From: Burkholderiales bacterium
Lineage (GTDB): Bacteria > Pseudomonadota > Gammaproteobacteria > Burkholderiales > Burkholderiaceae_E
Assembly: GCA_026399875.1 (NCBI GenBank)
Contig: JAPLQF010000013.1
Span: forward strand, 1-64,000
Direction of reading: 5' to 3'
DNA length: 64,000 nt
A program made the translations under genes and the position numbers. The notes beneath the pieces were generated by a model that was not told the DNA's origin, searched no databases, and saw only the letters and a list, made by a program, of their open reading frames with translations. Shown in pieces: positions 15,444 through 24,568 of the stretch (its first letter is position 1; every line of letters begins with the position of its first letter).

Positions 15444-15706
15444 CAGGTCAATCCGTGGAAGTATGGCGCCCCGACCGTCGTCGGGCACTGAAGCGACCGG
15501 CTTGCCGCGGCGCTCGGGCACAGGAGGCTTTTCCTGTACACCGCTTTAGCCGCATTTTTTAGGCGCCCGCAAGCTGGTCACAAATCGGCGCGGGGCTCAC
15601 CTTAGCGGGGCGGCCGCGGGGTGTCAACGCGGCCCTGCCGTGGACCCGCTTGCTGCACCGCTGCTGCACAGCGCCGTGCGGCAGCCGCACTGGAGCCATG
15701 AGCGGC

Positions 15707-17373
15707 TCAGTTTTCGCGCAGACGCCTGAGCCCGGCCTGGACCTTGACCGGATCATCTGACCCCAGCAGCCGCGAGACACGCGTGCGAAGTCGGGCCGCA
15801 TCGCAGCGAAGAATCTCGCGCTTGACCCGCAACAGACTCGCCGGATGCATCGAGAAAGACCGCAACCGGCCCGCACGGCCGCACGGATGGTCTGCGACAC
15901 CAGGTGCAGCACCGCCGGATGGAAGGGGTCATAGAGTGATGCGACCGCATGATCGGTGCGGTCGATCGCCAGGGTGTACTGGATCAGGTCATTGGTGCCG
16001 ATCGACAGAAAATCGAGACGTCGGGCGAACATGCCGGCGGTGAGCGCCGCCGCAGGCACCTCGATCATGCCGCCCACCGGTACCTCGGGCCCTGATCGCC
16101 GGGTGCGCACCGACACCTGCTCACGCGCCTGGGCGATCAGCCGCAATGACTGCTCGACCTCATGACCATGGACGAGCATCGGTATCAGCAGACGGACAGG
16201 CCCGTGCTCGGCCGCGCGATGAATCGCACGCAACTGCTCCAGAAACATATCGGGCTCGGCGAGGCTATAGCGGATTGCCCGCTGGCCGAGCGCCGGGTTG
16301 GCAGCCGCCGCCTGATCATGGCCTTCGTCATCGCCGCGCAAGGGCTTGTCGGCACCGATGTCGATGGTTCTGATCGTGACCGGGCGGCCTCGCATCGCAA
16401 TGACCGCGGCGGCATAAGCCTCGTATTGCTCGTCTTCGCCCGGCCGGTCGTCGCGATTCATGAACATGAATTCGGTGCGAAACAGTCCGATACCGGCCGC
16501 ACCCGCCTCGATCGCCTGCTCGGCCTCGGCCGGCAGCTCGATGTTGGCATGCAGCTCGATCGGAACACGGTCGACGGTCGCCGTGGGCACATGCACCAGC
16601 CGCCCGAGCTGCTTGCGCTCGAGCAGGCCCAACATCATGCGGTGCCGATACTCCTCGAGCACGATGGCGTCGGGCGCAACCATCAGCACGCCCGCGTCGC
16701 CGTCGAGCACCACCCAGTCATCGTCACGAACCAGCAGACTGCCGGTGTTCAGCCCGACCACCGCCGGCACATTCATGCTGCGCGCCAGAATCGCGGTGTG
16801 CGAGGCGGTGCCGCCGAGGTCGAGCGCGAAGCCACCGGCCTGTTTCAGGTGCAGCATGTCGGCCGGCGCAACATCATGGGCAATGAAGACCAGCGGCACG
16901 TCGCCCGGCTTGGGCCGCTCGGGCAATCGGCGGCCAGATCCGGAAAGCGCCTTGAGCACCCGATCGGCAACCTGCGTCAGATCACGGCCGCGCTCGCGCA
17001 GATAGGCATCCTCGAACTGTTCGAATTGCGCAGCCAGGTGTTCGACCTGCGCGAAGAACGCCCACTCGGCATTCTGGCCATGCAGCTCGACCGCCAGTCG
17101 CGTTTGCTCGACCAGCGACGGGTCTTCGAGCATCATCGCGTGGATCTGCAGCAAAGCCTGAGCCTCGGGTGGCGCATCGACTGGCAACTGTTCGCCGAGA
17201 TTGGCCAGCTCGAGCCTCACCACGTCGATCGCGCGGTCGAGCCGACCGAGTTCGGCGGCACGCTGCTCGGGCGTGATGCGATAACGCGGCACATCGATCA
17301 GCCGAGATTCGAGCACGACCGCACGGCCGACGACGATGCCGCCGCCGATGCCGGTACCGTGAAGGCTGAACAT
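15707..17373 (-). pseudogene. ptsI: PTS enzyme I (PtsI), damaged by a ~70-nt deletion removing the Cys loop
   Basis: Phosphoenolpyruvate-protein phosphotransferase, first step of the PTS. The N-terminal and swivelling domains are intact, with phospho-acceptor His192 in GGTASHTAIL, and the TIM barrel reads normally to TIRAAVRAG (Gly503). The frame then shifts. The expected continuation (LRSFSMHPASLL to RRLREN and a stop at 15707-15709) is present in another frame. The segment missing between them should hold the CGEMAGD loop with the catalytic Cys. The frame offset requires a loss of 1 modulo 3, which fits 70 nt, at about 15865-15868. As read, translation runs on to 15559 in the wrong frame. 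It sits 19 nt after ptsH. Either the gene is inactivated or the assembly is wrong here. Confidence 0.85.
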
Positions 17374-17392: not shown

Positions 17393-17686
17393 TCAGCGCT
17401 CGGGCGGATCGGCCGGGCTCACGCCCTCCCCGAATCCCGAGCCGACCAGGTCGAGGAGCGCCGCAAGCGCCGCATCCTCATCGGGGCCGTCGACATCGAT
17501 AACCAGGTTTGCCCCGCGCGCCGCCGCGAGCATCATGACGCCCATGATGCTTTTGGCATTGACGCGACGGCTGCCCTTGCTGATCCAGACATCGGACTTG
17601 AAGCGACTCGCCAGCTGGCTGAGCGCGGCTGAGGGCCGGGCATGCAGACCCAGCTTGTTCACGACCACCACCGTTGCCTTTTTCAT
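17393..17686 (-). CDS. ptsH: HPr phosphocarrier protein
   Basis: 97 residues from ATG 17686 (MKKATVVVVNKLGLHARPSA). The active-site His lies in GLHARPSA and the regulatory-site region reads SIMGVMML, as in HPr. It accepts phosphate from EI and passes it to EIIA proteins. The start overlaps the EIIA stop by 4 nt, so the two are coupled. The C-terminus is about 8 residues longer than usual, ending Pro/Glu-rich. With the adjacent ptsI damaged, its phosphorylation would need another EI. Confidence 0.93.
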   Translation of the reverse strand: MKKATVVVVNKLGLHARPSAALSQLASRFKSDVWISKGSRRVNAKSIMGVMMLAAARGANLVIDVDGPDEDAALAALLDLVGSGFGEGVSPADPPER

Positions 17687-18093
17687 CCGGGATTCTCGTC
17701 GGGGTCCAGAGCATGCACCGTGCGAATCGTCTCGCGAACGCCATCGAGCAGCTTGTCGGTCACTTCTTCGAGCGCCCCGCGCCGATGGGTGATGGCCTTT
17801 ACGAGCAGCGGCAGGTTGACACCGGCGATGACGGTGATGCGATTGGGTTCGGCCAGGCAAGCGGCGATGCGCGCGGGTGTCGCGCCATAGAGATCGGTCA
17901 GCACGATCGCACCAGTACCGTCATTGATGCGTTTGAGCAGCTCGCGTGCTGCGCCGAGCGCAAGCTCGGGGTCTTCATCGGGAATGACATCAAGCGCGGC
18001 CAGTTGCGGTGGCAGACGCCCGAAGATGTGACGGGTGCAATGCAGCAGCGCCGTGCCCAGCGGCTCATGCGAGATGAGCAGGATGCCGATCAT
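17683..18093 (-). CDS. PTS EIIA component, mannose/fructose family
   Basis: 136-residue EIIA(Man)-type protein with phospho-acceptor His9 in LISHEPLG. No EIIB or EIIC gene is nearby, so this looks like the regulatory PTS found in many betaproteobacteria, where phosphorylation of EIIA reports carbon status rather than driving sugar uptake. The frame overlaps gshB (4 nt upstream) and ptsH (4 nt downstream), forming a tightly coupled run. Confidence 0.9.
   Translation of the reverse strand: MIGILLISHEPLGTALLHCTRHIFGRLPPQLAALDVIPDEDPELALGAARELLKRINDGTGAIVLTDLYGATPARIAACLAEPNRITVIAGVNLPLLVKAITHRRGALEEVTDKLLDGVRETIRTVHALDPDENPG

Positions 18094-23070: not shown

Positions 23071-24568
<1,498 letters not shown>

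Follow-up and report, generated by a model that had tools for sequence, protein, structure and literature searches.

The closest described counterpart to the locus considered here is found in Ralstonia eutropha H16. As described in PMC3222305, EIIA-Man, HPr and enzyme I (EI) are encoded in that order by ptsM-ptsH-ptsI, EIIA-Ntr and HPr kinase lie elsewhere in the genome, and an additional PTS serves N-acetylglucosamine; the same account describes ptsI mutants that are viable, with growth and storage changed. A second body of work concerns draft assemblies, in which assembly error is documented as a source of many spurious pseudogenes (PMC11017572), with frameshifts and internal stops treated in general.

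Here we analyse a ptsI gene that is broken in the deposited assembly of a Burkholderiales bacterium (GCA_026399875.1, contig JAPLQF010000013.1), a break that is probably not a real feature of the organism. The window, meaning the whole stretch of DNA that was analysed, comprises 64,000 nucleotides, positions 1 to 64,000 of that contig. On its minus strand the gene order is EIIA-Man, HPr, ptsI, and downstream of ptsI on the same strand follow an alpha/beta-hydrolase frame, which we take to be metX, and MetW. Elsewhere in the genome lie a single EIIA of PF00359, taken as EIIA-Ntr, and, about 600 bases from it, a single HPr kinase. No EIIC of PF02378, the EIIC family searched, was found in the genome, and the remark in the first-pass annotation that no EIIB/EIIC is present holds for EIIC of that family; its statement that EIIA and HPr are intact also stands, both being complete frames by Pfam. 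In gene order, and in the separate placement of EIIA-Ntr and HPr kinase, the genome is like R. eutropha H16 as described (PMC3222305), which in addition has its N-acetylglucosamine PTS; this genome differs further from H16 in that 70 nt of ptsI are absent, the frame is broken and the catalytic loop is lost as assembled. The features of the locus are as follows.

17683..18093, minus strand: EIIA-Man (PF03610) by Pfam, an open frame.
17444..17680, minus strand: HPr domain (ptsH) by Pfam, the sole HPr found in the genome.
15866..17373, minus strand: 5' part of ptsI, ending at the break (502 native codons and 2 nt), with PF05524, PF00391 and most of PF02896.
15865..15866, minus strand: ptsI junction, at which the relatives' gene has exactly 70 nt more, with no microhomology.
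15707..15865, minus strand: what is left of the native C-terminus of ptsI (52 codons and the TGA), in a frame that differs from that of the 5' part.
15559..17373, minus strand: mechanical 604-aa open reading frame resulting from the break, with about 100 C-terminal residues out of frame.

From its start at 17373, ptsI reads normally up to TIRAAVRAG and loses its frame at 15865|15866, just where the first-pass annotation had placed the break. Past the junction the gene reads out of frame until a stop at 15559, giving 604 aa, compared with 576-579 aa for ptsI in the four nearest relatives, and the native C-terminus (LRSFSMHPAS onwards) occupies 15865-15710 in a different frame and ends in a TGA at 15707-15709. 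Those relatives are same-genus genomes (G001-G004) with 95-96% protein identity to this EI over its first 498 residues. In all four ptsI is intact, both flanks align, and exactly 70 nt more lie between them; the absent stretch amounts to 23 codons plus 1 nt and encodes KPVSVCGEMAGDLEATRLLIGMG, so the earlier estimate of about 23 missing residues, CGEMAGD included, and of a 70-nt deletion proved exact. Since these 70 nt of coding sequence are absent, and not merely out of frame, programmed frameshifting was ruled out.

The N-terminal HPr-binding domain (PF05524, 1-121 of 121 by Pfam) is complete in the broken EI, and the swivelling phospho-histidine domain (PF00391, 6-72 of 72) is present, with its histidine motif GGTASHTAIL. 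The PEP-binding barrel (PF02896) is incomplete, at 2-254 of 293 compared with 2-290 in the homologue from G003. The CGEMAGD loop, which holds the active-site cysteine of EI, is absent here, although it is carried by all four nearest relatives and conserved in the solved EI 2wqd. Judged from its sequence, EI as assembled, deprived of the PEP-site loop and the C-terminal part, should be unable to charge HPr. The earlier proposal that the regulatory PTS cannot be driven by this EI, meaning loss of the pathway or use of a second EI, is partly supported and is not the best reading.

A real and recent 70-nt deletion that made ptsI a null allele in this strain is a reading to which we give some credence, though on balance we doubt it. 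Such an allele could still yield the HPr-binding and phospho-histidine domains, and its product could bind HPr; lacking the PEP-site loop and with its C-terminus scrambled, it would take up no phosphate from PEP. HPr and the EIIAs would then go without histidine phosphorylation, leaving HPr kinase to act by itself. The break does stand in the deposited sequence, and the genome holds neither a second EI nor a stray copy of the 70 nt that we could find: when 151 bases of G002 that bridge the missing stretch were used as query, the sole matches were the two flanks of the ptsI locus, with none on another contig. With PF02378 EIIC not found, sugar uptake need not depend on EI, and R. eutropha H16, whose ptsM-ptsH-ptsI operon is similar, tolerates the deletion of ptsI (PMC3222305, as described there).

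The first-pass annotation had also offered use of a second EI, and had called for a search of the genome for another ptsI. None was found in the assembly. The EI N-domain (PF05524) has one match across it, and the two PF02896 matches are ptsI itself and an 832-aa frame on contig C4 that lacks the EI N-domain and is probably PEP synthase. Around 5% of the genome may be missing, which leaves a place for such a gene; yet further EI-type matches in same-genus relatives are, among the matches listed, distant, with identities of about 30-41% to a part of the query, and that a second EI elsewhere drives the PTS is barely conceivable.

The ptsI gap has company. We aligned 12.4-32.3 kb of the window across four genomes and then widened the census of deletions to about 279 kb aligned with G003. 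In the four-genome alignment this genome has two private deletions of more than 3 nt, the 70-nt one in ptsI and one of 55 nt at 23561, neither of which keeps the reading frame, and G001 has private gaps of up to 54 nt, mostly at 12.4-13.1 kb. Over the wider alignment the clean, out-of-frame private deletions number four (70, 55, 74 and 164 nt), two in contig C24 and two in C4, 3.3 kb apart, with microhomology at the junctions of 0, 1, 0 and 0 nt, respectively. Those other than ptsI are listed here.

23561..23562, minus strand: second clean private deletion, 55 nt, breaking a Gcw_chp (PF09694) gene, presumably for an outer-membrane protein; the stretch is intact in all three relatives compared (G001-G003).
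Contig C4:62912 (locus L157): 74-nt private deletion that breaks a gene for an AcrB-family pump; in G003 this gene has an open frame of 3225 nt.
Contig C4:59577 (locus L156): 164-nt private deletion at the start of a 693-nt frame.

The AcrB-family assignment comes from Pfam on the downstream part of the gene in this genome. The 74-nt stretch is spanned in G001, G002 and G003, and the matches of G004 end on both sides of it, apparently at contig ends; the 164-nt stretch is spanned in all four relatives, including G003, the source of the query. G002 runs unbroken over both sites, and G001 covers both in two pieces that are not broken there.

For the census we used blastn pieces of more than 700 columns and more than 82% identity, and counted gaps of at least 10 nt with at least 22 of 30 matches on each flank. 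It returned 19 deletions in this genome and 18 in G003; the length is not divisible by three in 12 of the former and 5 of the latter, and in 5 of 8 and 1 of 2, respectively, of those that reach 50 nt. Two deletions in this genome, of 97 and 41 nt, fall in no coding-like frame of G003 and for this reason were not counted as gene breaks. By a stop-to-stop test, three gaps of 11-13 nt in this genome fall within frames that are open in G003, and the comparison of open reading frames flagged no break there. In-frame clean deletions of 60, 108 and 117 nt are likewise present in this genome. On the side of the relatives, an out-of-frame deletion of 83 nt in G003 falls in a frame that is weakly coding, and when relatives are compared with each other over the ptsI block, out-of-frame gaps of 53 and 61 nt appear in G003 and one of 23 nt in G001, which may or may not be coding.

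Natural gene decay is expected to bring small indels and nonsense codons besides deletions. We compared 190 open reading frames of G003, matched at 80% or more, with their copies in this genome, where the mid-gene breaks are deletions of 55-296 nt. No mid-gene nonsense codon was found in these copies, internal stops occurring just within about 10 residues of the match ends, and no clear 1-2 nt frameshift was found among them besides one gene on contig C8. Of the 13 copies flagged, the 55-, 70-, 74- and 296-nt breaks account for four and ends of contigs or of the compared stretches for three; a further four have stops near the match end, among them the copy by the 164-nt site (position 10 of 450), and the remaining two show frame changes that are ambiguous because identity on one side is 66-74%. 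Earlier screens of this kind had overlooked ptsI, the protein match having continued through the junction; a tighter extension flags it. The 296-nt break was detected by this comparison alone and not by the gap census: near 161560 on C8 (locus L176) a 335-codon frame lacks, relative to G003, about 296 nt at a direct repeat of 8 nt, and an additional 1-nt gap lies downstream. This gene looks truly decayed, and to that extent it speaks for real loss in ptsI as well. On the other hand, a real null at ptsI requires that several deletions of 55-164 nt, all clean and out of frame and with 0-1 nt of homology, arose independently and recently in a genome in which Ku was not detected, which is otherwise largely intact and which has almost no point-type lesions in genes beside the deletions.

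Before the break, ptsI in this genome has 34 synonymous and 9 nonsynonymous private substitutions, compared with 22:4 in G003 and 14:4 in G002 for that part; beyond the break the figures for this genome are 4 and 1. All of these are small counts. The ptsI codons around the break show no clear relaxation of selection. The pattern suggests that ptsI was under selection along almost the whole branch, as expected if the gap is an artefact or the loss very recent, and does not support an old pseudogene. Slippage between repeats at the ptsI junction was rejected, there being 0 nt of microhomology against every one of the four relatives. Because Ku (PF02735) was not found in the genome, homology-free end-joining has no obvious enzyme, and Ku end-joining was set aside as a deletion route. 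Of 200 random windows of equal length, 27%, 90%, 76% and 74% were as stable as the deleted segments of 70, 55, 74 and 164 nt, respectively, or more so; dropout at hairpins is thus not supported, the structure of the segments not being unusual, and no cause of sequencing dropout was found. It is unlikely, in our estimation, that the lineage lost EI catalysis very recently and kept HPr, two EIIAs and HPr kinase in a PTS rewired to ATP-dependent HPr-Ser signalling alone, with ptsI as one of many clean, homology-free 50-160 nt deletions left by an unrecognised, Ku-independent process.

The assembly comprises 4,010,973 bases in 46 contigs, with 94.5% completeness and 0.47% contamination. Runs of N of 8, 15 and 37 nt occur on contigs C2, C4 and C8 in the 902 kb read, so the assembly was apparently scaffolded in places. 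Our favoured explanation is that the ptsI gap is probably an assembly error. The organism would then have an ordinary, intact ptsI in a regulatory-type EIIA-Man/HPr/EI operon, and assembly would have introduced the 70-nt gap, for example where two sequence ends were joined over a short unread stretch with no Ns left behind. We infer the artificial nature of the join from four clean breaks that come without small indels or nonsense codons, with near-zero homology, in well-kept genes and with Ku not detected, and from the N gaps in the same assembly together with the published case that assembly produces spurious pseudogenes (PMC11017572). The locus is like the pseudogenes described there, in that a conserved gene is frame-broken in a draft assembly that carries similar breaks, with the difference that clean deletions of 55-164 nt take the place of frameshifts and internal stops in general. 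The retention of HPr, EIIA-Man, EIIA-Ntr and HPr kinase points the same way. Loss of the pathway, as the first-pass annotation had proposed, would be possible, but assembly error accounts better for the three further private deletions, which are clean, out of frame and have 0-1 nt of microhomology.

Several observations nevertheless speak against an assembly error. A zero-overlap join requires a scaffolding or gap-closing step or chimeric reads, and there are no Ns at the ptsI junction or across its 134-kb contig. Clean deletions that keep the frame exist as well, the C8 gene looks truly decayed, two frame changes are ambiguous, a few out-of-frame gaps occur among the relatives too, and recent real deletions would be expected to give the same substitution pattern. 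In a strain mixture, the contig would follow a minor, deletion-bearing variant while most cells carry an intact ptsI. The records of most near relatives are titled as metagenome-assembled genomes and this genome is itself an incomplete draft; however, an intact ptsI alternative was not found on other contigs and contamination is low, and we regard a mixture as very improbable. If the gap is an artefact, claims of gene loss from this assembly call for caution unless backed by reads, the breaks in the outer-membrane protein and efflux-pump genes included; if it is real, the strain would offer a regulatory PTS that is naturally null for EI, in which the roles of HPr and HPr kinase in the absence of EI could be studied.

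All 61 genomes that were searched return some match to the first 498 residues of EI. G016, of the same family and 98% complete, has a weak EI match only (E 9e-11, in an 843-aa frame) and no HPr that was found, which suggests that the PTS core was lost in one family member. The example bears on both readings: it shows that a member of the family can be without close EI and HPr, as a real null would have it, and in this one sampled family member the two are missing together, whereas here HPr is kept, as an assembly error would have it. In G009, where HPr was not found, EI is partial and lies at a contig start. In the single-contig genome G040, ptsI is divided between two frames with a TAA inside (G040:C1:1854027-1855501), and a second EI-like match lies in an 855-codon frame that includes an HPr domain. 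One record, CAMCXH010000035.1, is titled Bordetella parapertussis, yet it groups in the genus of this genome with metagenome-assembled genomes titled Burkholderiales, and by appearance is a probable mislabel.
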